Assembly (NCBI GenBank): GCA_019753155.1
Contig: JAIELG010000053.1
Span: 1 to 37,352 of the forward strand
Source of the DNA: Burkholderiales bacterium
GTDB taxonomy: Bacteria > Pseudomonadota > Gammaproteobacteria > Burkholderiales > JABEVD01
Direction of reading: 5' to 3'
DNA length: 37,352 nt
Positions 372-37,352 of this stretch are shown here, piece by piece. Made by a program: the position numbers and the translations under genes. A model generated the notes under the pieces. The model had not been told where the DNA came from, searched no databases, and saw nothing but the letters and a program-made list of their open reading frames with translations. Position 1 is the first letter of the stretch; the number at the start of each line of letters is the position of its first letter.

Positions 372-3300
372 ATGAAAAGGCCCGGAAGGAACCACGCATC
401 GAATCTCAAGGCGGACAGAGATGTCATGAGAAATCAAGCCAGTGCAAGCAAACCCAAGTCAGCACCTGACAAATCAAAAAATTCAGAAAAACCCCTGCGC
501 CCTTACATTGTTGGTATTGGTGCTTCCGCTGGAGGTCTTGAAGCACTCTCTACTTTGATAGGCGCGCTTCCAACCGATCTCGGCATTTCATACGTCGTGC
601 TTCAGCACCTCTCGCCCACACACCGTAGCATGATGGTGCAGTTGCTCGGGCGCGAAACTGCGATGGCGGTACTGGAGGCGGAAAATGGGGTGAGTCCGGA
701 TCCTGATACGGTTTATGTTGCGCCAGCCAGCCGCAACCTGATTCTGAAAGACGGTTGCTTCATACTGATTGAAGGTCCACGCGAAGTGACGCCGCGCCCT
801 TCAGTCAATGTATTCCTCACTTCGTTGGCGGAGGAGAAAATAGAAGATGCCATCGGCGTGATCCTTTCCGGTACCGGCAGCGACGGCGCAGCCGGGTTGC
901 GCGACATCAAGGCGACGGGCGGGTATACCTTTGCCCAAGACCCGCAGACCGCAAAGTATGCCGGCATGCCGCAGTCGGCGATAGATACCGGCTGTGTGGA
1001 TTGGATATTGCCACCGGAAGGCATTGCAAACGAAATTGCCGTCATCGCACGTTCGCACGGCGCGGTCATGGTGGTGAACGAGGCTCCAGCGGCGGCCACC
1101 ACACTGAAAAAGCTTCTGATCAAGGTCAAGCAGCAGACGCGCATCGATTTTTCCGGCTACAAGGAAGGCACCCTGTGGCGGCGTATCGAACGGCGTATGG
1201 CGGCGCGACATATAACAAGCCTCAACGATTACCTGGCGCTGGTGGACACCGAGCCGGAAGAACTGGAACATCTGGGTAAGGATATTCTGATTTCGGTCAC
1301 CGCATTCTTTCGCGATCCGGAATCCTTCAATTCATTGCGCAACATACTGAGCAATATAGTAAAAAACAAGCAGCTTGGAGATGAGATACGCATATGGGTG
1401 TCCGCCTGCGCCACAGGCGAAGAAGCCTATACGATAGCAATTCTTCTATCCGAAATCCTGGGACCGAACGTCATGCAGTTCCGCATCCAGATTTTCGCTA
1501 CCGACCTTGACATGAATGCGCTGGCCATTTCGCGCAAAGGCTCCTACGCGGAAAGCGCGCTGGCTGATCTGGAACCGAGCTTGGTGCTGCGATATTTTCA
1601 GAAGGTGGGTAATCGCCTGGAAGTCTCGCGCGCCCTGCGCGACATGGTGGTGGTCGCGCGCCAGGATCTGGTGCAGGATCCGCCTTTCCTGCGGCTCGAC
1701 ATGGTGAGTTGCCGCAATATGCTCATATACCTGCAAAACGAATTACAGGCCAAGGTGCTGGCAACATTCCACTACAGCCTCAACCCCGGGGGGATACTTT
1801 TCCTCGGCAAGTCAGAGGGGGTGTTCCAGCAGGATGACCTGTATGAGGTGGTCGATAAAGCGGCGCGCATCTACCGGCGACGTGCTGGCGATTCGCGCCT
1901 CAGCGTGTCGGCCTTCCGACTGCCGGATAACTTCGAGCGTCAGCCTGCCAAAGCCGCGCCGCCGGATACCGAGCGCCACTTGGTGGAGGAGGCGATGCGC
2001 CGGTACGCTCCCCCCTCGGTATTGATCAACAGCACTTTCGACATCCTGCATATCTACGGTGATGTCACGCCCTATCTCGCAGTGCTGCCGGGAAAACCAA
2101 ATTTCAATTTGCAGAACCTGCTTCACCGCGAAATGCGGGCTGATTTGCAGATATTACAGCATCATGCCGAGCATAAACAGGAATCCACCTTTGGTAGGCC
2201 GCACGCGGTCAAAATAGAAGGCGGCAAACGCGATGTGCGTATTGCCGTACACCCGCTCACTCATGGCAGTGTTGCCAACCAATTGTTTCTGGTTTGCTTC
2301 GAGGTATTGCCCAAGCCTGAATTAGTGGTTGTGGGTGATGATAACGAGGCCGTACTGACGGCGGAAGGACGAAATGTTCAGGAGTTGGAAGACGAGTTGA
2401 TCTCCACAAGGGAGCGTCTGCAGACCGTCATCGAGGAACTGGAAACTTCCAACGAGGAAATGCAGGCGCTCAACGAAGAAGTTGTGGCGGCAAATGAAGA
2501 ACTTCAATCTACCAATGAAGAACTCGAATCCACCAACGAGGAACTGCAATCCACCAACGAGGAACTGACCACTGTCAACGAGGAGATACAGGTTCGCTCC
2601 AGCGAATTGGCTGATCTGCTGAACGATGTTGAAAACATCCTGAACAGCGTGGGTTTCCCGATACTGGTATGCAACAAGAACCTCGAACTTACTCGCTTCA
2701 ATAGCCCTGCCGCAAACATGTTCTCGCTATCCAAGGCTTCGATACGGCAGTTGCTTCCCTCCATGAGGCTGCCGCTGGGCATGAAGGATTTTTCCGGGAT
2801 CATAAATGAGGCGATCGACGCCAACCGTGTCGCCGAAGAACGGGTCTTTTCCAGCGAACGCCACTACCTGTTACATATATCGCCCTATGAAACCAAGGTG
2901 CACGGCAATCGTGGCGCGATCATTGTGATGCTGGATCACACTGAACGGTTGGCGGCAGAGCGAGAGGTGCGCAAGAACCGCGAAATTCTGCTTTCCATAA
3001 TGAACAATTCCACTTCCATCATCGCGCTCAAGGATCTAGCCGGACGCTACGAGTTCGTCAACCGGAAGTTTGAACTGCTGTTCAATATTTCGGCGGATAA
3101 AGTGATCGGCAAGACCGATGCTCAGCTTTTCCCGCGCAAGGTTGCAGATGATTTTCGCACCAAGGAGCTCGAGGTGGTTCGCAAGAAATCCATGCTCGAA
3201 TTTGAGGATCACCTGATCCTTTCCACAGCAAATGAAATATTCCTGCACTCGGTGCGATTCCCCTTGCTGGCTGAGGATGGCGAGGTTTACAGCGTGTGTA

Positions 3301-4991
3301 CACAGGCTACCAACATTACGGAAAGCAAACATGCGCAAGACCAATTGCGCTTGGCCGCGCGCGTGTTCGACCGCGCTGGGGAAGGTATTATGGTCACTGA
3401 CCAAAATTGTAAAATCCTTACGGTTAACGCCGCATTTACTCAGGTGACAGGTTTCGAGGCTGAAGAAGTAATCGGAAAAACACCGAGCATCCTTTCCTCG
3501 GGGAAGCATGACAAGGACTTTTACAAAGACTTGTGGTTGCATTTGCAAAAAAATGGCTGGTGGCAAGGCGAGATATGGAACAAGCGCAAGAACGGTGAGA
3601 TCTATCCGGAATGGCTGACCATCAATACCGTGCGCGATACGCAAGGAGAGGTGGTCAACTACGTTGGTATATTTAGCGACATTTCCATAGTCAAGGAATC
3701 GCAGCGCCGTGTCGAATTTCTAGCCACCCACGACGAGCTAACCGCCCTTCCCAACCGCACCCTGTTTCTTGATCGTTTGCACCAAGCAATAGCCCATGCA
3801 CAACGTGGTAAAAAAACATTTTGTGTATTGTTCATTGACCTTGATAACTTTAAGTTCATTAACGATTCTCTTGGTCATGCTGCCGGAGATGATTTGCTGA
3901 AAGAAATCGCGAACCGTTTGCGAAATTGTCTGCGCGGAACGGATACCGTAGCGCGCTTTGGTGGAGACGAATTCGCTCTTCTGATTGAAGATTCCTCGGT
4001 CACAGACGCTGAGATGACGGCACAACGGATCACAGAATCTTTACACCTGCCATATATGATTGGAAGGCAAAATATTTATCCCGGTGCCAGCATCGGCATA
4101 TGCCTTTATCCAAATGATGGAACGGATCCCGATACGTTGCTTAAGAACGCCGACAGTGCCATGTACAAAGCCAAAGATGGCGGTAAAAATATGCACCATT
4201 TCTTCACTGAAGAACTGAAGCAAGCTGCAGATGAACGACTAAAAATGGAGGGCGCCCTACGTTCTGCCATCGCAAAGAACGAGATGCTTCTTGTTTACCA
4301 GCCGAAATTGGATATGTCCGGCAAGCGCATGGTCGGCATCGAGGCGCTGGTGCGATGGAATCATGCTGAGGGCCTGATCCCCCCGATGAAATTCATTCCG
4401 CTGGCTGAGAAGATCGGTCTGATCGATCCGATCGGCGAATGGATTGCCGAGACCACATGCAGGCAAATGGCCGAGTGGATCAAGAAGGGTTATGACGTGC
4501 CCCAAGTCTCGATCAACATTTCCGCCGAGCAATTCAAGCGGGGCAACATTCCGGCAATGATGCTGCGCCTGCTCAGCTATTATCGCCTTGATGCGAGCCG
4601 TGTGATGCTGGAGTTGACAGAAAGCGTGCTAATGGAAGATATCGAGAACATTCAGCAAGTGCTGCTTGAACTGAAAGCATTGGGCGTAAAAATCAGCATA
4701 GACGATTTTGGCACTGGTTATTCATCGCTCGCCTATTTGCGAAAATTACCAATCAACGAACTGAAAATTCCTCGCGAATTCATAATGGATATTGGAAATA
4801 ATGAGGAGGACCAGTCCATCGCCAAAACTATTTTGGCCATGGCACAAACCTTGGGGTTTATTGTGGTTGCGGAAGGTGTCGAAACTAAAGAGCAGCTAGA
4901 GGTGTTACGCAGTCTGGGCTGTGATATCGTACAGGGTTTCCTGCTGTGCGAACCAGTGACTGCGGACACGCTAATAGAAAAGTTTTTCTGA
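372..4991 (+). CDS. CheB-CheR-PAS-GGDEF-EAL fusion signalling protein
   Basis: This is a 1539-residue cytoplasmic protein with no signal peptide or membrane segment. The CheB methylesterase domain (about 44-230) has the catalytic set Ser52 (GASAGG), His79 (LQH) and Asp171 (GTGSDGA). The CheR methyltransferase domain (about 245-515) has the SAM motif SACATGEEAYT near 344-354. A coiled coil of repeated NEELQSTNEEL-type heptads follows at about 670-745, then three PAS domains (about 746-1115). GGDEF is intact at 1197-1201, with an RGTD inhibitory site five residues upstream. The EAL domain starts at 1324 and keeps DDFGTGYSS (1444) and the catalytic Lys1465, but KID reads KIP. It may link receptor-type methylation chemistry to c-di-GMP synthesis or breakdown; that link is inference. 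AGGAGCAGGAG precedes the ATG. CheB-CheR-PAS proteins usually end in a kinase or a short tail, so this end is less usual. Confidence 0.93.
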   Translation: MKRPGRNHASNLKADRDVMRNQASASKPKSAPDKSKNSEKPLRPYIVGIGASAGGLEALSTLIGALPTDLGISYVVLQHLSPTHRSMMVQLLGRETAMAVLEAENGVSPDPDTVYVAPASRNLILKDGCFILIEGPREVTPRPSVNVFLTSLAEEKIEDAIGVILSGTGSDGAAGLRDIKATGGYTFAQDPQTAKYAGMPQSAIDTGCVDWILPPEGIANEIAVIARSHGAVMVVNEAPAAATTLKKLLIKVKQQTRIDFSGYKEGTLWRRIERRMAARHITSLNDYLALVDTEPEELEHLGKDILISVTAFFRDPESFNSLRNILSNIVKNKQLGDEIRIWVSACATGEEAYTIAILLSEILGPNVMQFRIQIFATDLDMNALAISRKGSYAESALADLEPSLVLRYFQKVGNRLEVSRALRDMVVVARQDLVQDPPFLRLDMVSCRNMLIYLQNELQAKVLATFHYSLNPGGILFLGKSEGVFQQDDLYEVVDKAARIYRRRAGDSRLSVSAFRLPDNFERQPAKAAPPDTERHLVEEAMRRYAPPSVLINSTFDILHIYGDVTPYLAVLPGKPNFNLQNLLHREMRADLQILQHHAEHKQESTFGRPHAVKIEGGKRDVRIAVHPLTHGSVANQLFLVCFEVLPKPELVVVGDDNEAVLTAEGRNVQELEDELISTRERLQTVIEELETSNEEMQALNEEVVAANEELQSTNEELESTNEELQSTNEELTTVNEEIQVRSSELADLLNDVENILNSVGFPILVCNKNLELTRFNSPAANMFSLSKASIRQLLPSMRLPLGMKDFSGIINEAIDANRVAEERVFSSERHYLLHISPYETKVHGNRGAIIVMLDHTERLAAEREVRKNREILLSIMNNSTSIIALKDLAGRYEFVNRKFELLFNISADKVIGKTDAQLFPRKVADDFRTKELEVVRKKSMLEFEDHLILSTANEIFLHSVRFPLLAEDGEVYSVCTQATNITESKHAQDQLRLAARVFDRAGEGIMVTDQNCKILTVNAAFTQVTGFEAEEVIGKTPSILSSGKHDKDFYKDLWLHLQKNGWWQGEIWNKRKNGEIYPEWLTINTVRDTQGEVVNYVGIFSDISIVKESQRRVEFLATHDELTALPNRTLFLDRLHQAIAHAQRGKKTFCVLFIDLDNFKFINDSLGHAAGDDLLKEIANRLRNCLRGTDTVARFGGDEFALLIEDSSVTDAEMTAQRITESLHLPYMIGRQNIYPGASIGICLYPNDGTDPDTLLKNADSAMYKAKDGGKNMHHFFTEELKQAADERLKMEGALRSAIAKNEMLLVYQPKLDMSGKRMVGIEALVRWNHAEGLIPPMKFIPLAEKIGLIDPIGEWIAETTCRQMAEWIKKGYDVPQVSINISAEQFKRGNIPAMMLRLLSYYRLDASRVMLELTESVLMEDIENIQQVLLELKALGVKISIDDFGTGYSSLAYLRKLPINELKIPREFIMDIGNNEEDQSIAKTILAMAQTLGFIVVAEGVETKEQLEVLRSLGCDIVQGFLLCEPVTADTLIEKFF

Positions 4992-15994: not shown

Positions 15995-16360
15995 TTATTT
16001 CTTTTCGCTTGCTGCCGGAGCCGAAGCTGCGCCCTTTTCCTTCTTGGGGCAGGGTTCGGTCTGGAACTGTTGGGTCGTTATACACCATTTTTTTCTCTGG
16101 TGCGGGCAAGGTTCGGTCTGGAACTGTTGCGTCGTTCTGCACCAGTGGCGGCGGGCCTTCTTGGGGCAGGGTTCGGTCTGAAACTGCTGCGTGGCTTTGC
16201 ACCAGTGGCGGCGAGGTTTTTTCGTTTTCGAGGCATCTTTGGAATCGGCTGATTTGGCTTCGGTCGCAGCAGGAGCGGATGCGGCGTCAGCAGCATAAGC
16301 CGACATACATGCCGATGCAGCAAAAACGGAAGCGATTAGAATTGACAGAAATTTTTTCAT
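15995..16360 (-). CDS. Small exported protein with three Trp/Cys repeats (family member 1)
   Basis: I do not recognise a named family. The 121-residue protein has a signal peptide (MKKFLSILIASVFAASACMS, likely cut after AYA at 23), then ADAASAPAATEAK, then three repeats of the form WC-x-x-TQQFQTEPCP starting at Trp53, Trp73 and Trp92. Each repeat holds two Cys ten residues apart (54/65, 74/85, 93/104), and Arg/His/Lys-rich links join them. Six Cys in an exported protein suggest disulphides or metal binding; there is no CxxCH. The DNA repeats with periods of 57 and 60 bases. AGGGGAG precedes the ATG. Confidence 0.85.
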   Translation of the reverse strand: MKKFLSILIASVFAASACMSAYAADAASAPAATEAKSADSKDASKTKKPRRHWCKATQQFQTEPCPKKARRHWCRTTQQFQTEPCPHQRKKWCITTQQFQTEPCPKKEKGAASAPAASEKK

Positions 16361-18196: not shown

Positions 18197-18484
18197 ATGG
18201 ATCATCCTCCCCCCATGGAAAGACTTGAAGCGGATTTTTCTTTACTGCATGCCCTGATCGGCAGAAAGGTGTCATGGCGCGACAGATCGGGGATCGTCGT
18301 GGAAATCCTGGAAGACGGCCCTGCGCTCGTGGTCCAGGCAGATGATCTTCTGATCCAGGAGGACAGCTATGGCTATCCCAGGCGTCGCGGCAGGCAAACC
18401 ATACTGGTACAGGTGTTCAATCCCGAGTGTACGGATTACACCGAGGATTTTCTGGAAATCAGGGGACCGGCTTGTCTATCGTGA
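18197..18484 (+). CDS. Small conserved-looking hypothetical protein
   Basis: I do not recognise a family. The 95-residue protein is soluble, acidic and has no signal peptide. Visible features are the segment LIGRKVSWRDRSGIVVEILE (20-39), which looks like a small beta-barrel strand pair, then LVVQADDLLIQEDSYG and a basic YPRRRGRQT. Start choice is uncertain: AGGA lies only one base from the ATG at 18197, and ATG 18215 (MERLEADF) has no clear site. It is divergent from csp and its last 26 bases overlap the end of ccmI tail to tail. Codon use looks like that of its neighbours. Confidence 0.6.
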   Translation: MDHPPPMERLEADFSLLHALIGRKVSWRDRSGIVVEILEDGPALVVQADDLLIQEDSYGYPRRRGRQTILVQVFNPECTDYTEDFLEIRGPACLS

Positions 18485-19688
18485 TATGGATGTCCCCGGC
18501 GCCCACCTTGACCGGCTGACTGAGTCCTTCAAGATCGCCGCTTTGCGGCATCGCATTGCCGGATTTGGAAATCCGCGCGCCGACGACGACTTCCCTGAAA
18601 TTCGACAGCTTCATCATCGGGGCCACGGCCAGCGTATCATCCAGCGAAAATTTGAGGGGCAGTTCCCTGGCCTCGACTTTCAGGATTGCAAGCGGCATCC
18701 TGGGGCCGCTTGACGCGCGGGCGAAGATGAAGAGGGTATCCTTGGGGGAGATTTTCGATGCGAATTCAGGAGCGAGTGTCACGGTTCCGGAAACGCTTGC
18801 CATGGCAGATCGGGGCTTGAGTTTCGATTCCGGAAGCGGCTTTCCACTTGCCTTCGCGGCTTCCCTTGCGCCGGCAATGCCGTTTTCTACCGCCTTGGCA
18901 TCCTCCGAATCGGGCTGAAGTTGTGCGAGCAGGTTTTCCCAGAGCATGACGACTCGCGCATAATTTTTTTGCTCGAATGCGATTGCGCCGCCGAGAGTGA
19001 GCGCTTTTGGATTGTTCGGGTCGATCTTGAGGGCTTTTTCCGTGAGTTCCACTGCTTTCGGGTTCAATTTCGTCGGATCCGTCATCATCTCGCTTTCGCC
19101 GTATTCGGCCAGAACCTGCGCATCATTGGGCAGCAGTTTCGATGCATGATCGAAAGCATCGACCGCATCAGGAAAGCGCTTGAGTATCATGTAAGAGCGC
19201 CCAAGCATGGTCCATCCTTCTGCATCGGACGGATTCTTCTGGAGTCGCGCGGCAAGCTTTGCCACCATGGTTTCTATTTTTTCCTGGGTGAATCCGCCAT
19301 TGTCTGCGGCGGCTTCCGGAGGCGCTTCCTGCGGGCCGAGAAATTTCGAATGGCCCAGTTGCAGGTAGAGCAGCACGGAAAGAACAGGAATCGCAATGCC
19401 CAGAACGAGCGCTGTTTTTTTTCCGGCAGGATTGCTCTCAGCCGTTTCCTCATCCGAGATATCCTCAAGCAGTCTTTTCTGTATTTCCTGCCTGCCCTGT
19501 TCGTATTGCGCTTCGTTTACCAGCGCGTTTTCGCGGTCCGTTTCCAGTTCATTGAGTTGCTGCTGATAAAGGGAAATATTGAGATGGTTGCGCTCGACGC
19601 CGTTGCCTTTTCGGCGCAGGAGCGGCGTAAGCACGAAAAGAAGTGCGATCAGGATGAGAATCCCGCAAATGGTCCAGAAAGCGATCAT
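18459..19688 (-). CDS. ccmI: Cytochrome c maturation protein CcmI (CycH)
   Basis: CcmI holds the C termini of apocytochromes c and presents them to CcmH and CcmF. The 409-residue protein has an N-terminal membrane helix (about 4-23) followed by the conserved LNISLYQQQLNELE cytoplasmic block, a second helix near 92-108, TPR repeats in the periplasm (for example GWTMLGRSYMILKRFPDAVDAF) and a C-terminal domain with VSGTVTLAPEFA and LDDTLAVAPMMKLSNF. It is the last gene of the ccm operon and its ATG overlaps the ccmH stop by 4 bases. Its tail overlaps the small gene at 18197-18484. Confidence 0.93.
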   Translation of the reverse strand: MIAFWTICGILILIALLFVLTPLLRRKGNGVERNHLNISLYQQQLNELETDRENALVNEAQYEQGRQEIQKRLLEDISDEETAESNPAGKKTALVLGIAIPVLSVLLYLQLGHSKFLGPQEAPPEAAADNGGFTQEKIETMVAKLAARLQKNPSDAEGWTMLGRSYMILKRFPDAVDAFDHASKLLPNDAQVLAEYGESEMMTDPTKLNPKAVELTEKALKIDPNNPKALTLGGAIAFEQKNYARVVMLWENLLAQLQPDSEDAKAVENGIAGAREAAKASGKPLPESKLKPRSAMASVSGTVTLAPEFASKISPKDTLFIFARASSGPRMPLAILKVEARELPLKFSLDDTLAVAPMMKLSNFREVVVGARISKSGNAMPQSGDLEGLSQPVKVGAGDIHITIDKPVP

Positions 19689-20140
19689 GGATTATTTTCC
19701 AGCAAGGATTGTGCGCGCTGTGCGTCGTCAGGGGATAAATGCGTCTCCTCGATTTGGCTGCGGCGTTTTCTGATGGTGAGAAAGAGTACAATGAGTCCGA
19801 TGGCGAGGAACAGGAATGGCCCGTACCATAACAGCAGCGTCGTCGTTTTGACAGGCGGCTTGTAGAGCACGAAATCCCCGTAACGATTGACGAGATACGC
19901 GACGATTTCCTTGTCGGACATGCCCTTTTTCATCATTTCCCGGATTTCCTGCTTGAGGTCCAGCGCAAGTTCCGCCTGGGATGCGGCAAGCGTCTCGTTC
20001 TGACAGACGAGGCAGCGCAGATCTTCGGAGAGGTCGATCATGCGCTTCTCGATGGCGGGGTTCTCCGCAACCGGAACAGCTTCCTTCGCGTAGCCGGAAT
20101 TGACGAAAACGAGCAGGACGAAACATAGCAGCAGCTTCAT
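19685..20140 (-). CDS. ccmH: Cytochrome c maturation thiol reductase CcmH (CycL/Ccl2)
   Basis: CcmH reduces or guides apocytochrome thiols before haem ligation. The 151-residue protein has a cleavable signal peptide (MKLLLCFVLLVFVNSGYA), the hallmark LRCLVCQNETLAAS with Cys43 and Cys46, the conserved GMSDKEIVAYLVNRYGDFVLY block, and a C-terminal membrane helix near 105-122. This is the short two-Cys form, with the TPR part encoded separately as ccmI. It overlaps both neighbours by 4 bases. Confidence 0.96.
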   Translation of the reverse strand: MKLLLCFVLLVFVNSGYAKEAVPVAENPAIEKRMIDLSEDLRCLVCQNETLAASQAELALDLKQEIREMMKKGMSDKEIVAYLVNRYGDFVLYKPPVKTTTLLLWYGPFLFLAIGLIVLFLTIRKRRSQIEETHLSPDDAQRAQSLLENNP

Positions 20141-20664
20141 TGCGAGAGTTCCCTTGCCCGTGGAATGATTCTTTCATCGAGACTTTTGACCGTGATCGGG
20201 CCGATGATTTTGTCGCGGATGATCCCGGCTTTGTCGATCAGGTAAGTCTCAGGAACCCCGTAAACGCCGAAGTTGATCCCGACGCGCCCGTCCAGGTCGG
20301 AAACGCTGAGTTCATAGGGGTTGCCCATCTGGTTCAGCCATTTCCTGGCGTCCTCAGGCTTGTCCTTGTAATCGAGTCCGATGATAGGGATGATCTGTTT
20401 TCCGGAAAACTCCACCAGAAGCGGGTGTTCTTCGCGGCAGGATTCGCACCATGAGGCATAAACGTTGAGGAGCCAGACTTTTCCCAGCATGTCCCGGTTG
20501 GAGAAGTGTCGGCCGGGATCGTGGACATCGGTGAGATCGAATTGAGGCGCGGGTTTGCCGATCAGGGGGGAGGGGACTTCCCTAGGGTTCAGCCTGAGCC
20601 CTACCCAGAGGAAAACGACCAGGATCAGGAAGAGCGCCAGGGGGATGACGAATTTCGCTTTCAT
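20137..20664 (-). CDS. ccmG: Thiol:disulphide interchange protein CcmG (DsbE)
   Basis: CcmG is a membrane-anchored, periplasm-facing thioredoxin that keeps CcmH and apocytochromes reduced. The 175-residue protein has an N-terminal anchor (about 5-22), the active site WCESC with Cys73 and Cys76, the acidic REEHP following it, and GVYGVPETYLIDKAG with the cis-Pro. Glu-Ser between the cysteines differs from the Pro-Thr of E. coli CcmG. It overlaps ccmF and ccmH by 4 bases each. Confidence 0.96.
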   Translation of the reverse strand: MKAKFVIPLALFLILVVFLWVGLRLNPREVPSPLIGKPAPQFDLTDVHDPGRHFSNRDMLGKVWLLNVYASWCESCREEHPLLVEFSGKQIIPIIGLDYKDKPEDARKWLNQMGNPYELSVSDLDGRVGINFGVYGVPETYLIDKAGIIRDKIIGPITVKSLDERIIPRARELSQ

Positions 20665-22631
20665 GTTGCCTCCATCGCGGGCTTGAGATCGTGGGCGGCG
20701 GCTTTACTCTTGATGCGATAACGCCTGTCGGCAACCGCGAAGAGACCGCCGATGGCCATGATCAGGCACCCTCCCCAGATCCAGTCCACGTAGGGCTTGT
20801 AGTAAATCCTGACGCTCCATGCGTTGTTGTCGATCTGTTCCCCCAGCGAGACATACAGATCGCGCGTGAGGCCGGGGTCGATGGAGGCGATCGTCATTAC
20901 CATTCCGGATGCGTTGTACCTGCGTTTCTCGGGATGCAGCATGAGCATCTGGCGCCCGTTTTCCATGACCGTGATGAACCCGCGTTCGGCCTGATAATTG
21001 GGCCCCTGCACGTCGCTGGTCCCGTCGAAGCGGAAGGTGTAGGAAGCGATTTTGAGCGTATCCCCGACATTCATCCTGACATCGCGCTCGGTTTCATAGC
21101 CCTTGACCATGGTGACCCCGATCACGAATACCGCAATTCCGAGATGACCGAACAGCATGCCGTAATAGCTCATGGATTGTTTCGCCATCGCGGCGAACAT
21201 GTCGCCGGATGACTTGATCCTGTTCCAGAAGGAATGCAGGGTCGTGAAAATGATCCAGGCCGCAAGCAGAAAGCCCAGGCTGATGAGGGGCGTCCAGCTG
21301 CCCAGGGCAAGCGGCAGGATGGCGGCGGAGAGGATGCTCGCGGCGAAGGCCCATTTGAGCCTGTATGCCATGTCGGGCAGGCTTGCCTTTTTCCAGCTCG
21401 CGATCGGTCCCAGGCCGATCAGAAACAGGGCGGGTACCATCAACGGCACGAAGATGGCATTGAAATAGGGGGGGCCGACCGAAATCTTGCCCATGCCAAG
21501 CGCATCCACGAGCAGCGGGTAGATCGTGCCGAGCAGGACGGAAGTGGCTGCAACGGCGAGCAGCACGTTGTTCGAGAGCAGCAGGGATTCGCGGGATACG
21601 ATATCGAATTTTCCGCCGAGTCCAACCTTGGGCGCGCGCCATGCGTAGAGCAGGAGGGAGCTGCCGATCACGGTCAGGAGAAAGATGAGGATGAATGTTC
21701 CGCGCCTCGGATCGGTTGCAAAGGCGTGGACGGAAGTGAGCACGCCGGAACGCACGAGGAATGTGCCGAGGAGGCTCAGCGAAAATGCGCCGATTGCGAG
21801 CAGCACTGTCCAGCTTTTGAAGCTGCCGCGTTTTTCCGTGACCGCGAGCGAATGAATGAGGGCCGTGCCGACGAGCCATGGCATGAAGGAAGCATTCTCG
21901 ACAGGATCCCAGAACCACCACCCCCCCCAGCCCAGTTCGTAATAAGCCCAGCCGCTGCCGAGCGCGATTCCGAAAGTCAGGAAAATCCAGGCAGTGGTGG
22001 TCCAGGGGCGCGACCAGCGCGCCCAGGTCGCGTCCAGTTTTCCGGAGAGCAGTGCGGATATGGCAAATGCGAAGGCGATCGAGAATCCGACATAACCCAT
22101 GTAGAGCATGGGGGGGTGGATTACGAGTCCCGGATCCTGCAGCAGCGGGTTGAGATCGGCCCCGTCCGCGGGTGTCGGAAACAGCCTGGCGAAAGGGTCG
22201 GAAGTGAGCAGCATGAACAGCAGGAATCCGACGCTGATGAGACCCATGACGCCCAGCACGCGGGCAACCATCTCATCCGGGAGGTGACGGCTGAAAACGG
22301 TCACCGCAACCGACCATATTCCAAGGATGGTGACCCACAGGAGCAGCGAGCCTTCATGCCCCCCCCATTCCGCCGCAATGCGGTAATGCAGCGGCAGGTG
22401 GGAATTGGAATGCTCCGCGACATACTGGACGGAAAAGTCGTTGTTGATCAGGGAGTAGACGAGGCAGCCAAATGCGATGGCAACGAAAACGAACTGCCCC
22501 TGAGCGACGGGTCTGGCGATTCCCGTCAGGGTGGGGATGCCCTGCTGTGCCCCGAATATCGGGACGATGCCCTGAATCAGCGCCAGAAGGAGCGCCAGTA
22601 TCAGGCAAAAATGACCAATTTCAGGAACCAT
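20661..22631 (-). CDS. ccmF: Haem lyase subunit CcmF
   Basis: CcmF joins haem from holo-CcmE to apocytochromes c. The 656-residue inner-membrane protein has about fifteen hydrophobic segments. The WWD haem-handling domain reads ELGWGGWWFWDPVENASFMP. Conserved His are seen in YRIAAEWGGHEGSLLLWV (His ligand region) and DPGLVIHPPMLYMGYVG. The length is that of the E. coli protein. An 11-bp gap separates it from ccmE, and it overlaps ccmG by 4 bases. Confidence 0.98.
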   Translation of the reverse strand: MVPEIGHFCLILALLLALIQGIVPIFGAQQGIPTLTGIARPVAQGQFVFVAIAFGCLVYSLINNDFSVQYVAEHSNSHLPLHYRIAAEWGGHEGSLLLWVTILGIWSVAVTVFSRHLPDEMVARVLGVMGLISVGFLLFMLLTSDPFARLFPTPADGADLNPLLQDPGLVIHPPMLYMGYVGFSIAFAFAISALLSGKLDATWARWSRPWTTTAWIFLTFGIALGSGWAYYELGWGGWWFWDPVENASFMPWLVGTALIHSLAVTEKRGSFKSWTVLLAIGAFSLSLLGTFLVRSGVLTSVHAFATDPRRGTFILIFLLTVIGSSLLLYAWRAPKVGLGGKFDIVSRESLLLSNNVLLAVAATSVLLGTIYPLLVDALGMGKISVGPPYFNAIFVPLMVPALFLIGLGPIASWKKASLPDMAYRLKWAFAASILSAAILPLALGSWTPLISLGFLLAAWIIFTTLHSFWNRIKSSGDMFAAMAKQSMSYYGMLFGHLGIAVFVIGVTMVKGYETERDVRMNVGDTLKIASYTFRFDGTSDVQGPNYQAERGFITVMENGRQMLMLHPEKRRYNASGMVMTIASIDPGLTRDLYVSLGEQIDNNAWSVRIYYKPYVDWIWGGCLIMAIGGLFAVADRRYRIKSKAAAHDLKPAMEAT

Positions 22632-22642
22632 GGATACTCCGG

Positions 22643-23083
22643 CTATAAGGGTGTCTTGGAGGCTTTTGCGGCCTTGAGTTCGTTTGCGACTTCGGGCGGC
22701 ATGTAGTTTTCGTCATGTTTGGCCAGCACTTCGTCCGCGACGAAGCGTCCGTTCGAATCGAGCCTGCCCTGGGCGACGACCCCTTTGCCTTCCTTGAAGA
22801 GGTCGGGAAGAATGCCTTTGTAGGTTACATTCATGTCGTGTTTGGTGTCCGTCACCACGAAATGCACGGTGAGTCCGTCATTTTCGCGGCGGAGCGAGCC
22901 TTTTTCGACGAGTCCGCCGATCCTGAAGGCGCGGTTCACCGGCGCTTCTTTCGCGATGACCTGGCTCGGCGTGAAGAAAAATACGAGGTTGCTCCTGAAA
23001 GCGTTCATGACGAGAGCCACGATGATGCCGATCCCGGCAACGCCGATCAGGATAAAAACCAGTTTTTTGTGACGCGGTTTCAT
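22643..23083 (-). CDS. ccmE: Haem chaperone CcmE
   Basis: CcmE binds haem covalently in the periplasm and passes it to CcmF. The 146-residue protein has an N-terminal anchor (about 8-27), a beta-barrel OB domain with [11 protein letters not shown], and the haem site with His123 and Tyr127 in [13 protein letters not shown] chose ATG 23083 ([10 protein letters not shown]), 6 bases after GAGG. A longer frame runs into ccmD and adds about 42 residues with no conservation. Confidence 0.95.
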
Positions 23084-23091
23084 TGCCATCC

Positions 23092-23265
23092 TCAGGGTGT
23101 ATTCAATCTTTGAATCTGACCCAGCCGCTTCAGCAAAGTTCGCCGCCTGACCGACAAAAGCAGGAGTTCGAGCGCGAGCAGGGCGAAAGAGAGTCCGAAA
23201 GACCCCCATACGTAGAAGCCGTAGCCGCCCATGTGCAGAAATTGAGAAACGTTTTCCCAGTTCAT
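23092..23265 (-). CDS. ccmD: Haem exporter accessory protein CcmD
   Basis: CcmD is a tiny membrane protein needed to release holo-CcmE from CcmABC. The 57-residue protein starts [20 protein letters not shown], has one helix through [18 protein letters not shown], and ends in a basic cytoplasmic tail (RRRTLLKRL). The Gly-Gly-Tyr-x-x-Tyr-Val-Trp start is the family pattern. The ATG overlaps the ccmC stop by 4 bases, which fixes the start. Confidence 0.93.
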
Positions 23266-24005
23266 TTCATGTCCTTCAGCAATTGCGCAACCCAGGTCGA
23301 GTGGCGCTCGCGCTCGAGTATGACGAGCCTTACCCGGTAGAGTGTGACTGCGATGGCATACATCCAGCAGGCGAGTGCCATGATCAGCATGCCGGCAAGC
23401 ATGGTGTGCGCCATGGAAGGGGCTCGGGTCAGATTGATCGATGCGCCCTGATGCAGGGTATTCCACCATTTGACGGAAAAATAGATGATGGGTACATTGA
23501 CGACGCCGACGAGCGCGATCAGCGCGCCTGCCCTGTCCGAGCGCTTCGGATCGTCGATGGCGGCCTGGAGCGAAATGAAGCCGATATAAAGAAAGAACAG
23601 GATCAGTTGGGAGGTCAGTCTTGCATCCCATACCCACCATGCGCCCCACATCGGCTTCCCCCAGAAGGCACCGGTGAAGAGCGCGATCGAGCAGAACAGA
23701 GCGCCGGTCGGAGCGAGGGCCTGAGCCATCATCGAGGAGAGCCGGGTGTTGAAGGCAAGCCCGATTCCCGCGTAAATCGCCATGATCACGTAGATGAACA
23801 TCGACATCCAGGCCGCCGGCACATGGATGAAAATGATCCTGTAGGCTTCCCCCTGTTGCGCATCGGTGGGCGCCACGAAAAACCCGATGTAGAGTCCGAC
23901 GATGAAGAGGATTCCGGACAGGGCGGCAAAGCCTGGGATCATTTTTCCGGCAAGGCCGTAAAAAGATGCCGGGGATGCATATTTGTACCAGTTGATCGTG
24001 CTCAA
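23262..24005 (-). CDS. ccmC: Haem exporter subunit CcmC
   Basis: CcmC brings haem to CcmE and forms the complex with haem and CcmE. The 247-residue protein has six membrane helices, the first conserved His in [16 protein letters not shown] and the WWD domain [20 protein letters not shown], with a second His in [18 protein letters not shown]. The length is normal. It lies 9 bp after ccmB in the ccm operon. Confidence 0.97.
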
Positions 24006-24014
24006 TTCATACCC

Positions 24015-24680
24015 TTATTCCAGAGAGATGCGCAATGCCGCAGCCGCTGCTTTCGGCGTAGCCAGAAGCGCCAATACCAGGAGCGCGCCCAGCAGGGAAA
24101 GATGGCCTCCCGCACCCAGCCCCGAGGCGTTGGCATCGACCGCCCCCGCGCCGAAAATCAGCACGGGAATATAGAGCGGCAAAACCAGCAATGATACCAG
24201 AACACCGCCGCCTCTCAAGCCCAGCGTCAGAGAGGCGCCGATTGCGCCCACGAGACTGAGGACGGGCGTGCCCAGGAGGAGGGACAGGGCCAATACCCAT
24301 AACGCGTCCCCCGACAACCCGAATTGCAGGCCGAGAAGCGGCGCCATCAGCACCAGGGGCAGTTCCGATGCGATCCAGTGCACGGCTGTTTTTGCCAGGA
24401 CGATGAGGGCAAGCGATTCCGGGCAGAGCAGCATCTGCTCCAGCGTCCCGTCGCCATGGTCGGCTGCGAAAAGCCGCCCGAGGGACAGCATCGAGGCGAG
24501 CAGCGCCGCGACCCACAGCACGCCCGGCCCCATCGCCTTGAGGAGTTGCGGTTCCGGTCCCACCCCCAGCGGGAACAGGCTCACCATGATGACGAAGAAA
24601 AACAGCGTCGTCAAAACATCGGATTTTCGCCGCATTGCAAGCAGCAGATCCCGCTTCAGTACCCACATCACGATGGTCAT
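24015..24680 (-). CDS. ccmB: Haem exporter permease CcmB
   Basis: CcmB is the membrane part of the CcmAB ABC transporter that powers release of holo-CcmE. The 221-residue protein has six hydrophobic segments and the family blocks LKRDLLLAMRRKSDVLTTL (8-26), LFAADHGDGTLEQMLLCPES, and LPLYIPVLIFGAGAV. It overlaps ccmA by 4 bases. Confidence 0.96.
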   Translation of the reverse strand: MTIVMWVLKRDLLLAMRRKSDVLTTLFFFVIMVSLFPLGVGPEPQLLKAMGPGVLWVAALLASMLSLGRLFAADHGDGTLEQMLLCPESLALIVLAKTAVHWIASELPLVLMAPLLGLQFGLSGDALWVLALSLLLGTPVLSLVGAIGASLTLGLRGGGVLVSLLVLPLYIPVLIFGAGAVDANASGLGAGGHLSLLGALLVLALLATPKAAAAALRISLE

Positions 24681-25291
24681 GAGGAGAACCTGATTTCATG
24701 AGTGGTTTTTGCTGCGATATCCAGTTCCTGATGCGTGGTCAGGATCAGCATGCCGCCGTTTTCGAGGTGGAATTCGAAGAGCGAGCGCATCAGGCCGATG
24801 GCGTCGGTGTCGAGCGCGGCGAGCGGCTCGTCCAGGATCCACAGCGGGGTGCTCGCCACGAGGAGCCTCGCCAGCATCACGCGCCGCCGCTGTCCTTGCG
24901 AGAGCACTTTCACCGGAAGATGCTCGCGCCCCGCCAGCCCGATTCTTGCGAGCGCATCGAGCGCGGCGCTCTCGCCGACATCGGATCCGGCAAGGCCGCA
25001 ATTGATGCGCAGATTCTCCACCCCGGAGAGCTCCTCCTTGATGCCGTTCAGATGTCCAAGATAGGTGAGCGAGTGCTTGTACTCATCCGAACGCCTGATG
25101 TTCAGTCCATTCCATTTGATTTCCCCCGATTCGGGAAGGACGAGTCCGCAGAGCATCCTGAGCAGGCTGCTTTTGCCGCTGCCGTTTCGACCCCTGACAT
25201 GGAGGAGTTCGCCGGGCGCGAGGCTGAAACCGACATCCGCGAAGAGCCTTCTGTCGCCGCGCATGCATTCCAAGCTGACAGCCTCAAGCAT
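24677..25291 (-). CDS. ccmA: Haem exporter ATPase CcmA
   Basis: CcmA is the ATPase of the CcmAB complex. The 204-residue protein has Walker A GRNGSGKS (34-41), the ABC signature LSQGQ (130-134), Walker B WILDEP (151-156) and a switch His in TTHQELD. The length is typical of CcmA. It is the first gene of the ccmABCDEFGHI operon. The predicted promoter lies about 27 bp upstream. Confidence 0.97.
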   Translation of the reverse strand: MLEAVSLECMRGDRRLFADVGFSLAPGELLHVRGRNGSGKSSLLRMLCGLVLPESGEIKWNGLNIRRSDEYKHSLTYLGHLNGIKEELSGVENLRINCGLAGSDVGESAALDALARIGLAGREHLPVKVLSQGQRRRVMLARLLVASTPLWILDEPLAALDTDAIGLMRSLFEFHLENGGMLILTTHQELDIAAKTTHEIRFSS

Positions 25292-25309
25292 CGAAATTAT
25301 TCCGCCAAA

Positions 25310-25330
25310 AATCCGATATTATAACGGATT
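25310..25330 (-). promoter_or_regulatory. Candidate ccm promoter -10 inside an inverted repeat
   Basis: On the minus strand a perfect TATAAT (25318-25323) lies about 27 bp before ccmA. No good -35 box is seen. It sits between AATCCG (25310-25315) and CGGATT (25325-25330), a 6-bp inverted repeat that could be an operator over the promoter. Confidence 0.45.
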
Positions 25331-25449
25331 CGCGGGAGAAGTCGGAGCGTGGATTTCTCATGCCCCATGCCGCGAGTATTTTCCGCGTGCGCTGGACTCA
25401 GTCGCATGGCAACCGTTGCTGTTAACGGGGCAAAGGCGGCGCTTTTGCC

Positions 25450-25477
25450 GGATCCGTCATTTCGAGCTTGTCGAGAA
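25450..25477. repeat. Dispersed intergenic repeat motif
   Basis: GTCATTTCGAGCTTGTCGAG followed by AATCTCGTCC matches a very common bacterial intergenic repeat type (GTCATTTCGAG...GAGAATC). It has a small internal TCGAG/CGAGA pairing. It is related in shape, though not identical, to the motifs at 26-50 and 37089-37352. Confidence 0.5.
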
Positions 25478-25619
25478 TCTCGTCCTGGCCAATGCCTGAT
25501 CGTCCAGTCCGCGAATACTGATAGGCATGATTTCACCTTATGAATTCAATGAATGCGCCGATGATGGTATTTTGGATTCGAAAATACAAGCGAAAGAGCC
25601 TGATTCGAAACCTCGATGC

Positions 25620-25639
25620 ATGTTGCATATTTGCAACAT
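25620..25639. promoter_or_regulatory. Palindromic operator candidate upstream of the cytochrome-porin
   Basis: ATGTTGCA-TATT-TGCAACAT is a perfect 8-bp inverted repeat with a 4-base centre. It ends 15 bases before the -35 box at 25655, a position suited to an activator. A half-site GTTGCA recurs near 25692, after the -10 box. The regulator is unknown; it does not match FNR or CRP boxes. Confidence 0.5.
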
Positions 25640-25654
25640 AAGATATGTTTAAGA

Positions 25655-25684
25655 TTGACCGTTTTTTTGGGGCCATGGTATAAA
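25655..25684 (+). promoter_or_regulatory. Sigma70 promoter of the cytochrome-porin gene
   Basis: TTGACC (25655-25660) and TATAAA (25679-25684) are separated by 18 bases. The start codon is about 83 bases after the -10 box, so the mRNA would have a leader of roughly 75 bases. Confidence 0.65.
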
Positions 25685-25767
25685 GCAAACGTTGCACAGT
25701 TCTGCCTGCAAGGAGGGGGGCGTGTAATGGGTATTCACCATTTATAAACATACTTAGGAGTGAAATC

Positions 25768-27165
25768 ATGCAATTCAAGAAAACTTTACTGGCGACTGCG
25801 CTGATGTCCGCAGCAGCCTGGGCGCCTTCCGCGCACGCGATCCCCGCCTTCGCACGCCAGGTCGGCATGGCTTGCAGCGCCTGCCATTACCAGCATTTTC
25901 CCGCACTGAACGGCTTCGGGCGTTCCTTCAAGCAGAACGGCTACACCATGGTCGGTGCCCAGGAGAAAATCGAAGCTGAAGGCCTTTCCATTCCCGCAGT
26001 GCTGAATGCGGCGCTGGTCGGCTACGCGCAATACCAGAAAACCAACGGCCCGGTCGGGGCCATAGGCGGTCAAACCTCTTCCACCAAGAATACCAACAAC
26101 GGTCAGGTACAGATCCCGCAACAGGTCAGCCTGTTCCTGGGCGGACGCGTGGGCGAGCATACCGGTTTCGAGGCTGAAGTCAGCCTGGCCAACGGCGGTA
26201 CGGTTCCGAATGCCGGCGCGACTGCGACGAACAGCGGCCTGATCAGGCTGAAAGTGCCTTTCGTGTATGACGTGGGCGGCGTGAATGTGGGCGCCATTCC
26301 CTTCAGCACCAACGGCCTCGGACCTGCAGACAGCTTCGAAGTGCTGAACACCGGTTCTGTCGCCGTGCATGCGTTCAACCAGACTCTTGTTGCCGGCGGA
26401 ACCACAGGCGGCATGCAGGTGATTTCAGCGCAGCAATATCTGGGAACGGCCACTGCCGCGAGCGGCGTGGCATTCGTCGCCAGCAACGACCAGTTCTTCG
26501 CCAACTTCGCGAAGTGGGGCGCAAACACCGGCGCGGGCGGTTCGGGCGGACCGACCTCCAACTATCTGCGCGCCGCATGGACTCCGGGTGACCTGATCCC
26601 GGGTTTTGATGCCGCTGTTGGCGTCCAGTTCTGGAAGGGAACCACCACGACATCCGCTATCGTTGCTAATGGTGTCGTTGCCGCTACCCCTGCCGCTAAT
26701 GTCGACACCAAGGCAACAGCGATCGATGCGCAGTTGCTGGGCGATGTGAGCGGAATGCCGCTGACCTTCGTGTTTTCCTATGCAGTGGCCCCGGCTTCCC
26801 CCGCAGCAGGCACGGTGGGCAATGTCAACCTGTACAACGCAGGCACCCAGAGAAAGAAATCGTTCAACATTGCTGCCGAACTCGGCGTGATTCCGAACAA
26901 GGCGACCCTGCAACTCGGCATCCGTCGCGCATCCAGCGGTGCGCCGGTGCAGGGTGGCACGATCGCAGCGCCTGTTGCCATTGCAAACTCGAATGCAACC
27001 GACAATGCGATCATGTTCGGCGCGACGTACAATATCGCTTTGAACGTCAGGGCTGAATTGACCTTCACCAAAGGCAGCGGCGATGTATATAATTCGGTAG
27101 CAGCAGGACAGGCTGCCTATATGGGCGACCGCATGACCACAGTGGATCTGGCCTTCGGGTTCTAA
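25768..27165 (+). CDS. Cyc2-like outer-membrane monohaem cytochrome-porin fusion
   Basis: The 465-residue protein has a signal peptide (cut after AHA, residue 24). Next comes IPAFARQVGMACSACHYQHF with one haem motif, Cys36-Ser-Ala-Cys39-His40, then PALNGFGRSFKQNGYTM. The remaining 400 residues are rich in Gly, Ala, Val and Asn with alternating beta strands (for example QQVSLFLGGRVGEHTGFEAEV), ending VDLAFGF with a terminal Phe, as in outer-membrane barrels. This layout, a short cytochrome plug before a porin, is that of Cyc2, the Fe(II) oxidase of neutrophilic and acidophilic iron oxidisers. I infer Cyc2 or a close relative; other fused cytochrome-porins with unknown donors exist. TAGGAG precedes the ATG. 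It lies beside the ccm operon, which would mature it, and has its own promoter. Confidence 0.82.
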   Translation: MQFKKTLLATALMSAAAWAPSAHAIPAFARQVGMACSACHYQHFPALNGFGRSFKQNGYTMVGAQEKIEAEGLSIPAVLNAALVGYAQYQKTNGPVGAIGGQTSSTKNTNNGQVQIPQQVSLFLGGRVGEHTGFEAEVSLANGGTVPNAGATATNSGLIRLKVPFVYDVGGVNVGAIPFSTNGLGPADSFEVLNTGSVAVHAFNQTLVAGGTTGGMQVISAQQYLGTATAASGVAFVASNDQFFANFAKWGANTGAGGSGGPTSNYLRAAWTPGDLIPGFDAAVGVQFWKGTTTTSAIVANGVVAATPAANVDTKATAIDAQLLGDVSGMPLTFVFSYAVAPASPAAGTVGNVNLYNAGTQRKKSFNIAAELGVIPNKATLQLGIRRASSGAPVQGGTIAAPVAIANSNATDNAIMFGATYNIALNVRAELTFTKGSGDVYNSVAAGQAAYMGDRMTTVDLAFGF

Positions 27166-27236
27166 AAGATCCTTCGCCTCGCCCCCGCTCGGGGCGAGCT
27201 GCTCGGGACAACAAGCCGGATAACCGGCAAACCTCG

Positions 27237-27272
27237 AACCCGTCACCTTGAAAAAGGCGGCGGGTTTTTTTT
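27237..27272 (+). terminator. Terminator after the cytochrome-porin gene
   Basis: AACCCG (27237-27242) pairs with CGGGTT (27261-27266), and the inner bases TCACC/GGCGG pair with one mismatch. A run of eight Ts (27265-27272) follows. It lies about 70 bp after the stop. A further hairpin without U tract, CTCGCCCC-N5-GGGGCGAG, lies at 27178-27198. Confidence 0.8.
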
Positions 27273-27412
27273 ATGGCAAAACCATCTGCGAGGCGGCGTT
27301 TTTCGCCCATACTCGAAGCGAACGGAAGGCGTGCTTGCGAGCAATGAGCAAGCTTGCATTCGATACGCTTATATCTGTAAAAAACCTGAAGGAAGATGGC
27401 TTCGCCGGACGG

Positions 27413-27441: not shown

Positions 27442-27533
27442 GATCGTAATGTGATGCAATGATGCGGGTAGCGGAGACGCTCCGTATTTTTTCGGCATAT
27501 GAGATGATGTTCGACATATTATGGGGGCGGATG

Positions 27534-28580
27534 ATGAAACCGAGAATACTGGTGACGAGTGCGGCCGGCAAGACCGGATTCCAGGCGGTCAGGCAATTGA
27601 TCGAGAAGGGCTTTTCTGTACGCGCGCTGGTGCATCGCTTGGACCAAAGAAGCGAATCGTTGCAGGCGCTCGGTGCGCAGATTCAGGTCGGCAATCTTCA
27701 CGACATCGAAGACATGCGCCTTGCGCTGAAGGATGTGCAGAGGGCCTATTTCTGCGCGCCATTGCTTCGGGATGCATTGAGCGCAAGCGTGGTTTTCGCT
27801 TCCGCCGCCGAAGAGCGTCGCCTGGAAGTGGTGGTGGCGATGAGCCAGTGGCTGGCTGATCCGCGTCATCCCTCGATTCATACCCGAGAGACCTGGCTGG
27901 CCGACAGGATGTTTTCCTGGATGCCGAACGTCGGCCTGGTCACGGTCAATCCGGGCTGGTTCGCCGACAACTATATGGCCGCCCTGGAGCCGATCGCACA
28001 GTTCGGCATGATGCCGATGCCGCTCGGGAAAGGCATGAACGCGCCGCCTTCCAACGAGGACATTGCGAGGGTGATCGCAGATGTACTCACCGCCCCGGCT
28101 GATCATGTCGGAAAGACCTACCGTCCGACAGGGCCGTCATTGCTCTCTCCCGAAGATATCGCAGCCGTTTTTTCCAAGGTGCTCGGACGCCCGGTCAGGT
28201 ATTTCGATGCGCCGCCACGGCTATTCACGAAAGTGGCCAGGGCGCTGAATTTTCCGGATTTTACGATCGCGCAGGTTCTCCGATATTTCGAGGATTACAA
28301 GCGCAATGCCTTTGCCATGGGCGCGCCGACCCAGGCCGTGCTCGAAATTACGGGACAGAAACCCGAAGATTTCGAAACCATCGTCCGCCGCTATGCGGGC
28401 AAATTCCCGCTGGTCGAAAGGAACTTCGGATCGATGCTGCGGGCGGTGGGCGGGATGGCGAGGATCATGCTCGAACCTTCGCTGGACCCGGAACGTTACG
28501 CTCGGTTGCACGAATTCCCTCGACTGTCCGGGACTTCACTGGCGGTCGAGTCCGAAATGTGGCGCTCCACGCATGCATAG
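27534..28580 (+). CDS. NmrA-type NAD(P)-binding Rossmann protein
   Basis: The 348-residue protein begins MKPRILVTSAAGKTGFQAVR, a Rossmann dinucleotide site of the SAAGKTG type (usual GATGxxG) seen in NmrA-like and atypical short-chain dehydrogenase proteins. Later blocks are RALVHRLDQRSESLQALGAQ (cofactor selectivity region) and VTVNPGWFADNYM. The last 110 residues, after about 235, are an extra part I do not recognise. It may be a redox sensor or a reductase; substrate unknown. GGGGGCGG precedes the double ATG; I took the second. The last 45 bases overlap hpnC tail to tail. Confidence 0.75.
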   Translation: MKPRILVTSAAGKTGFQAVRQLIEKGFSVRALVHRLDQRSESLQALGAQIQVGNLHDIEDMRLALKDVQRAYFCAPLLRDALSASVVFASAAEERRLEVVVAMSQWLADPRHPSIHTRETWLADRMFSWMPNVGLVTVNPGWFADNYMAALEPIAQFGMMPMPLGKGMNAPPSNEDIARVIADVLTAPADHVGKTYRPTGPSLLSPEDIAAVFSKVLGRPVRYFDAPPRLFTKVARALNFPDFTIAQVLRYFEDYKRNAFAMGAPTQAVLEITGQKPEDFETIVRRYAGKFPLVERNFGSMLRAVGGMARIMLEPSLDPERYARLHEFPRLSGTSLAVESEMWRSTHA

Positions 28581-37088: not shown

Positions 37089-37352
37089 CTCGAATGCCTC
37101 GGTGCAGGCTCCTTCTACTGTCATTCCGACCGAAGCGGAGGAATCCGGGCCACTCGAATGCCTCGGGGCAGGCTCCTTCGGCTGTCATTCCGACCGAAGC
37201 GGAGGAATCAGGGCTACTCGAATGCCTCGGGGCAGGCTCCTTCGGCTGTCATTCCGACCGAAGCGGAGGAATCCGGACCCCTCGAATGCCTCGGTGCAGG
37301 CTCCTTCTACTGTCATTCCGACCGAAGCGGAGGAATCCGGGCCACTCGAATG
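37089..37352. repeat. 64-bp tandem repeat array, reaching the window end
   Basis: The sequence CTCGAATGCCTCGG starts at 37089, 37153, 37217, 37281 and 37345, exactly 64 bases apart; the last copy is cut by the window end. Each unit contains TGTCATTCCGACCGAAGCGG and GGAATC. Units differ at a few fixed places: copies 1 and 4 have GGTGC...TTCTACTG, copies 2 and 3 have GGGGC...TTCGGCTG. Copies 1 and 4 are identical, so there may be a 192-base higher-order unit. 64 is not a multiple of 3, so it is not coding repeats. Confidence 0.95.

Follow-up and report, generated by a model that had tools for sequence, protein, structure and literature searches.

The window analysed here, the whole stretch of 37,352 nucleotides, carries at positions 25768..27165 on the forward (+) strand the gene cyc2, assigned as a Cyc2-type monohaem cytochrome-porin from its open reading frame, its homologues, its tree position and its AlphaFold2 (AF2) model. 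The frame opens with ATG at 25768, its stop codon ends at 27165, and it encodes an intact protein of 465 residues with no internal stops; the coordinates, frame and strand given for it in an earlier note on this DNA are correct. The protein begins with MQFKKTLLATALMSAAAWAPSAHA, followed across the inferred leader cleavage site by IPAFARQVGMACSACHYQHFPALNGFGRSFK, and ends in DLAFGF, with Phe as the final residue. The leader (25768..25839, +; residues 1-24) has, by eye, a basic-hydrophobic-AHA layout, with cleavage placed by eye between AHA and IP; it closely matches that of five congeners (genomes of the same genus), and the AF2 model puts a helix at residues 3-17. The protein contains AIPAFARQVGMACSACHYQHFPALNGFGRSFK, with exactly one CxxCH. 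This sole CxxCH is the haem c binding motif CSACH (25873..25887, +; residues 36-40), and behind it lies the PxL motif, here PAL (25900..25908, +; residues 45-47), followed by NGFGRSFK in a block conserved in our alignment A1. The earlier note had described a signal peptide, one CxxCH followed by PALNGFGRSFK and a C-terminal Phe, and had named FARQ-x-G-x-x-C-x-x-C-H and LN-x-FGR-x-FK as family marks; the FARQ...CSACH-x4-PxL block and the final Phe are indeed in the sequence. The protein's similarity to others goes far beyond chance, with 728 database proteins matching at E<=0.001.

The protein can be measured against the sequence features that define a Cyc2. The published motif is AxPxFAR[Q/K][T/Y] (PMC8406198), and AIPAFARQ precedes the CxxCH at the correct spacing, departing from the motif, on a strict reading, at the final position, which is Val as opposed to the published Thr/Tyr. 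Among the best 119 non-self homologues, the same position is Val in 95, Thr in 22, Met in 1 and Ile in 1, and it is also Val in the 'Cyc2-like' protein of Ca. Gallionella acididurans (P0037). A single CxxCH stands near the N-terminus, the PxL follows it after four residues (CSACH-YQHF-PAL), and the length of 465 residues compares with the at least 365 expected of a Cyc2.

Some 5.8 billion proteins were searched for homologues; 7994 candidates were scored, and the best 120 of the 728 matches at E<=0.001 were listed. The best non-self homologue is 70% identical over its full length, and one CxxCH is found in all 119 non-self homologues among the matches listed. The closest relatives with an organism name, again among the matches listed, are 54-64% identical and belong to Gallionella, Gallionellaceae, Nitrosomonadales and Sideroxydans; they include P0037, named 'Cyc2-like cytochrome' (62%, full length), and a protein of Sideroxydans sp. 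CL21 (54%). Neither Pfam nor NCBIfam gives a match to the Cyc2 protein at E<=1, and it could escape annotation. Porin_O_P (PF07396; OprO/OprP phosphate porins) was considered as the barrel family and rejected, having no match to the protein at E<=1 and none in the genome at E<=0.001, and a solved relative was likewise sought by sequence in the PDB, where no match was found at E<=10.

Behind the haem block, the AF2 model predicts a 16-strand beta-barrel (26005..27159, +), with strands running from residue 80 to residue 464. The model is a confident one of the barrel type (mean pLDDT 85.4, pTM 0.86), in which 16 strands span at least 6 residues each and the N-terminal portion is small and helical, and the best solved matches in the structural search are general porins of the OmpF/OmpC type, which are 16-stranded. 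The strand count that the earlier note had expected is therefore borne out in the model, and the 16-strand outer-membrane barrel of a Cyc2 is present by prediction. The phosphate porins named by the Cyc2 authors are absent from the best 50 rows of two structural searches, an absence that excludes nothing.

Upstream of the gene, a dyad, GTTGCATATTTGCAAC (GTTGC-N6-GCAAC; 25622..25637, +), is a candidate regulator site by its recurrence in cyc2 upstream regions. It starts 33 nt before a -35-like hexamer, TTGACC (25655..25660, +), from which a -10-like hexamer, TATAAA (25679..25684, +), is separated by 18 nt; both hexamers, which together make a near-consensus promoter, are conserved with congeners, and AGGAG (25756..25760, +) is the likely ribosome binding site. 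A consensus promoter scan did not list this -35/-10 pair because its -10 ends in A. Downstream, a hairpin followed by a U-run (27236..27267, +) is a likely intrinsic terminator (RNA fold of 27225-27285: -21.9 kcal/mol, z -3.27), which would make cyc2 probably monocistronic; the simple terminator scan did not list the 27236-27267 hairpin.

Divergent from cyc2 lie the cytochrome c maturation genes ccmABCEFGHI (18459..25291, -), in which NCBIfam matches support the three genes tested (CcmA, CcmF/NrfE-type and CcmH/NrfF-type), the other ccm names being given by eye. The cyc2 gene adjoins ccmA in the same gene order in all six congeners with a cyc2 match, and their ccm proteins are 72-92% identical to those of the window; congeners G002 and G006 (89% and 82% complete) gave no cyc2 match. 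The interval between ccmA and cyc2 measures 3.5-3.6 kb in five of the six and holds a module that is absent from the window (25292-25767) and from G005. Within this interval (loci L008 and L010, about 1.4-4.8 kb), the gene tested in G003 encodes a histidine kinase, while those tested in G004 are a small lipoprotein-like ORF and the gene of a sigma-54-type response regulator. An orthologue of this kinase elsewhere in the host genome was sought and discounted, since the 20 matches reach 23-39% identity and most of them cover no more than the kinase domain. Directly downstream of cyc2 is an NmrA-like gene (27459..28580, +; Pfam PF05368), found in its own genome only among the nine genomes of the genus (eight congeners searched, some 82-89% complete). 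Beyond it, hpnC is 57-65% identical to its counterparts in six congeners, where it is located elsewhere, versus 52-55% in five other genomes.

Several other features were observed along the way. At 372-4991, the window encodes a CheB-CheR-PAS-GGDEF-EAL fusion, a single chain of 1539 residues in which domains for chemotaxis methylation stand together with c-di-GMP domains. At 15995-16360 lies a 121-residue ORF that begins in a leader-like stretch and contains three copies of the repeat TQQFQTEPCP; it has no Pfam match and is 68-78% identical in five congeners. The contig ends at 37089-37352 inside a tandem array (64-base unit, 4.1 copies, 93% matches), which probably broke the assembly. The three cyc2 matches of G007 (L099, L100 and L101) all lie at contig ends, suggesting that similar repeats broke the assembly there, and in L004 (Ca. 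Gallionella acididurans) and L005 (bin LL2.bin39) two different cyc2 genes stand in tandem within about 3.4-6.3 kb.

For the phylogeny, a scan across the phylum, with matches in 88 of 398 genomes, gave a Cyc2 that was then used as a protein query to obtain named Zetaproteobacterial references. This query is identical over its 428 residues to a Mariprofundus erugo protein, and its search added three Mariprofundus ferrooxydans proteins, strain PV-1 not being named among the matches. In the resulting 89-row tree, the window protein falls in an 83-row side (support 98/90), which includes the three Mariprofundus ferrooxydans proteins, Gallionella, Sideroxydans CL21, Nitrospirae and other rows, apart from six long-branched outgroup rows that are distant or without an organism name, the tree containing no A. 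ferrooxidans or Leptospirillum. Membership of this side fits the composition given for Cluster 1 in the literature. The tree check called for in the earlier note thus places the protein with the Cyc2 of Mariprofundus ferrooxydans, Gallionella and Sideroxydans, and, as to the note's other suggestion of a sister family, the protein does not stand isolated, having relatives at 54-62% identity in Ca. Gallionella acididurans and in Sideroxydans sp. CL21, which is reported to grow on Fe(II) (PMC12442390). By its place in the tree, the window protein probably belongs to the Cluster 1 type of Cyc2, a known Fe(II) oxidase family; its boundary towards Clusters 2 and 3 is inferred from the Mariprofundus and Gallionella rows and from the distant, long-branched outgroups.

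The body of this Cyc2 and its 5' end have different affinities. The cyc2 copies of five congeners (G001, G003, G004, G007 and G008) share with the window the ccm-linked locus, the promoter, the dyad and the leader, but their long proteins are 50-53% identical to that of the window by tblastn, against 62% for Ca. Gallionella acididurans by the same method and against the 72-92% identity of the ccm proteins, and form another clade in the 89-row tree; the module between ccmA and cyc2 is a further difference. A clade uniting the window protein with the eight congener-type rows is rejected with p-AU 1.5e-5, a value that is somewhat optimistic in that the constrained clade was chosen after the first tree had been seen. 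The 5' side shows the opposite affinity. The 150 bp before the cyc2 start align to six of seven congener upstream regions at 74-81% identity (z 24-44), the seventh, belonging to a second cyc2 copy in G007, not being alignable (z 1.5), whereas against relatives of the window's body type the same 150 bp are unalignable in six out of six comparisons (z -2.1 to 0.4). Residues 1-31 are 92-97% identical to the copies of the five congeners, versus 48-77% in eight of nine body-type relatives and 90% in the ninth, P0002. The leader (residues 1-25) is at least 92% identical in 15 of the 119 listed homologues, all 15 of which have bodies 55-60% identical to that of the window. P0002, also one of the 119, shows the same combination of leader type and body type as the window, its leader being 88% and its body 72% identical.

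Most simply, recombination probably exchanged the cyc2 body, after about residue 31-62, for a Gallionella-like version, while the sequences in front of it at the ccm locus, the host's own promoter with its dyad and the leader, would have stayed in place. A mosaic with breakpoints inside the body was also considered and rejected: of 66 sites, 48 are of kind A, 10 of kind B and 8 of neither, and they are unclustered (17 runs, p=0.50); the claim is for this reason restricted to the 5' end versus the body. Base composition gives no sign of import, cyc2 (60.2% GC) and nmrA (58.7%) being close to ccmA (60.8%), ccmF (59.5%) and rnfC (59.4%); purB (54.3%) and hpnC (53.9%) lie below cyc2 and nmrA. Transfer of Cyc2 between lineages, and also within groups, has already been reported (PMC12442345), so that only the manner of exchange would be new, and in-place replacement of the body would offer a concrete route for the low 'clade fidelity' that the same source describes for Cyc2 (PMC12442345).

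Alternatively, the two body types may descend from old paralogues, that is, from two ancestral cyc2 genes with similar promoters, of which the Gallionella-like one would have survived at the ccm locus in the window's lineage and the other in its congeners. Multiple cyc2 genes per genome do occur, as in the three matches of G007, the tandem pairs of L004 and L005, and the three adjacent copies reported for S. lithotrophicus ES-1 (PMC8788666). However, position, promoter, dyad spacing and leader are common to the window and its congeners, which requires the same promoter before both ancestral copies, and none of the five congeners whose copy is long has the window's body type, G005 offering an uninformative 52-residue piece at a contig edge. 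We regard descent from paralogues as unlikely. An assembly chimera, in which the assembly linked Gallionella-type cyc2 reads to a contig of the host genus via the conserved leader/haem region, would need two joins, as the contig extends 10 kb past cyc2 and the downstream hpnC is closer to that of congeners; moreover, P0002, a separate database protein, has the same pairing. Such an artefact, for which the conservation of the leader-to-haem DNA and the position of cyc2 at a contig end in G001, G005 and G007 do speak, appears improbable.

The genome that would have received the body in this replacement measures 2.66 Mb in 59 contigs, is 99.7% complete and has a single cyc2 copy. Two RuBisCO large subunits score above the cut-offs of two different NCBIfam models (L142:10406-11896 with NF003252 and L142:4031-5407 with NF010002), which we take to be form I and form II. 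A cbb3-like oxidase subunit (CcoN-like) is found far below the NCBIfam ccoN cut-off (219.5 vs 583 bits), and PF11854, for the 26-strand MtrB/PioB-type porin, has no match in the genome. Of 40 related genomes, eight share the genus of the host and the remainder all fall outside its family; the Cyc2 proteins of congeners G001, G003, G004 and G007 are identical to those of the public SKS and DS3 bins. The host purB is 80% identical to that of one congener and 73% to that of Methylotenera, versus 66-69% in five of six named Gallionella/Sideroxydans/Sideroxyarcus genomes, with a weak match in the sixth. By this one marker, the host probably represents a betaproteobacterial lineage that does not belong to Gallionellaceae.

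Oxidation of Fe(II) is the likely function of the window protein. M. ferrooxydans PV-1 has a Cyc2 with this activity (PMC8406198), the same function has been inferred for Cluster 1 Cyc2 in a Gallionellaceae pangenome paper, and Cyc2 is described as a common marker of neutrophilic iron oxidisers (PMC10734462). In Sideroxydans CL21, cyc2 expression is reported not to track iron oxidation, so that alone it is no marker of activity (PMC12442390). A donor other than dissolved Fe(II), such as Mn(II), minerals or an electrode-like partner, is very improbable: many Cyc2 homologues are uncharacterised and the Cyc2 authors allow additional functions (PMC8406198), but the protein stands in the tree beside the Cyc2 of iron oxidisers, the named relatives among the matches listed are of the groups given above, and the single cyc2 together with the lack of an MtrB/PioB match leaves no other known outer-membrane iron route in these searches. 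Autotrophic Fe(II) oxidation is therefore the likely lifestyle of the host, as far as its gene content indicates, with Cyc2 as the sole outer-membrane entry found, which supports the earlier note's inference that the host may oxidise Fe(II). From outside the cell, Fe2+ would pass into the barrel and give up one electron to the haem plug on its periplasmic side; periplasmic cytochromes would then conduct electrons both downhill, to the oxidase, and uphill, towards the NAD(P)H needed in CO2 fixation. Our joint explanation, in which we have good confidence, is that the window encodes a Cluster 1-type Cyc2, likely a surface Fe2+ oxidiser, whose body was replaced behind a kept promoter, dyad and leader.

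Of the cyc2 upstream regions of the genus that reach 150 bp or more, all eight carry the dyad, one of them with 1 mismatch; outside the genus it recurs in 15 of 103 cyc2 upstream regions (at most 1 mismatch, N6 or N7). These 23 occurrences in 111 regions compare with 1.6 on average, and never more than 5, in 40 dinucleotide shuffles, the rows not being independent; several of the 15 matches outside the genus are mutual close relatives or lie far from -150. The dyad is absent from 88 of the 111 upstream regions, including all 16 from loci L102-L129, Mariprofundus among them. In four upstream regions outside the genus, L007 and L060 (Gallionella), L057 (Gallionellaceae) and L020 (unclassified Proteobacteria bin), TTGACA follows 31-33 nt after the dyad start, compared with 33 nt in the window. 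As the dyad also stands at -151 before a body-type relative, L007 (Gallionella MAG 25), it does not by itself mark the promoter as the host's own. A genome-wide dyad regulon was sought and rejected, the six exact places versus three for a reversed control showing no clear enrichment.

Given a start site placed 7 nt after the -10 box, the centre of the dyad would lie near -61.5. CRP sites have the same 5-N6-5 form, and our guess is that a CRP/FNR-type activator acts there. Among the papers listed in our literature searches, none gives, judged by title and abstract opening, an account of such a site in neutrophiles; those listed include a RegB/RegA study in the acidophile Acidithiobacillus ferrooxidans (PMC5506826). 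We put forward, tentatively and as a possibility, the broader proposal that the iron oxidase behaves as a plug-in part, its whole cytochrome-barrel body swapped by homologous recombination while promoter, leader and ccm position are kept, and that a 'cyc2 box' of CRP geometry, shared across two betaproteobacterial families, marks an undescribed cyc2 regulator. If so, the transfer of iron oxidation would work by exchange of the oxidase behind a fixed control region. The dyad itself is a candidate operator for the control of cyc2.

Among known systems, MtoAB/PioAB resemble the window protein in outer-membrane electron uptake from Fe(II) but comprise a separate porin and decahaem protein, with a larger barrel (PMC8406198), compared with one haem site here. 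The Cluster 2 Cyc2 of Ferrovaceae and Acidithiobacillus, compared with the window by description only, is likewise a Cyc2-like protein inferred to oxidise Fe(II), but is reported as a separate Cyc2 cluster (PMC13390463). The Cyc2-like proteins of Ca. Gallionella acididurans (P0037, L004 and L006) share 62% full-length identity and the same 30-row clade, whereas their neighbourhood differs, with a second cyc2 in tandem in L004, their upstream DNA is unalignable to the window, and they have no dyad near -150, L004 carrying a one-mismatch form at -241. With the Cluster 1 Cyc2 of Mariprofundus ferrooxydans PV-1 and Gallionellaceae (PMC8406198, PMC10734462), the window protein has in common a signal-like leader, the AxPxFARQ...CxxCH-x4-PxL block with its single CxxCH, the predicted 16-strand barrel and the side of the tree. 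It differs in its aligned identity of 28% to the Mariprofundus ferrooxydans rows of that cluster (P0123 and P0125), in the Val that replaces the published Thr/Tyr, and in a host that is, by one marker, probably outside Gallionellaceae; the case would thus extend Cluster 1-type Cyc2 to a lineage that this marker sets outside that family.
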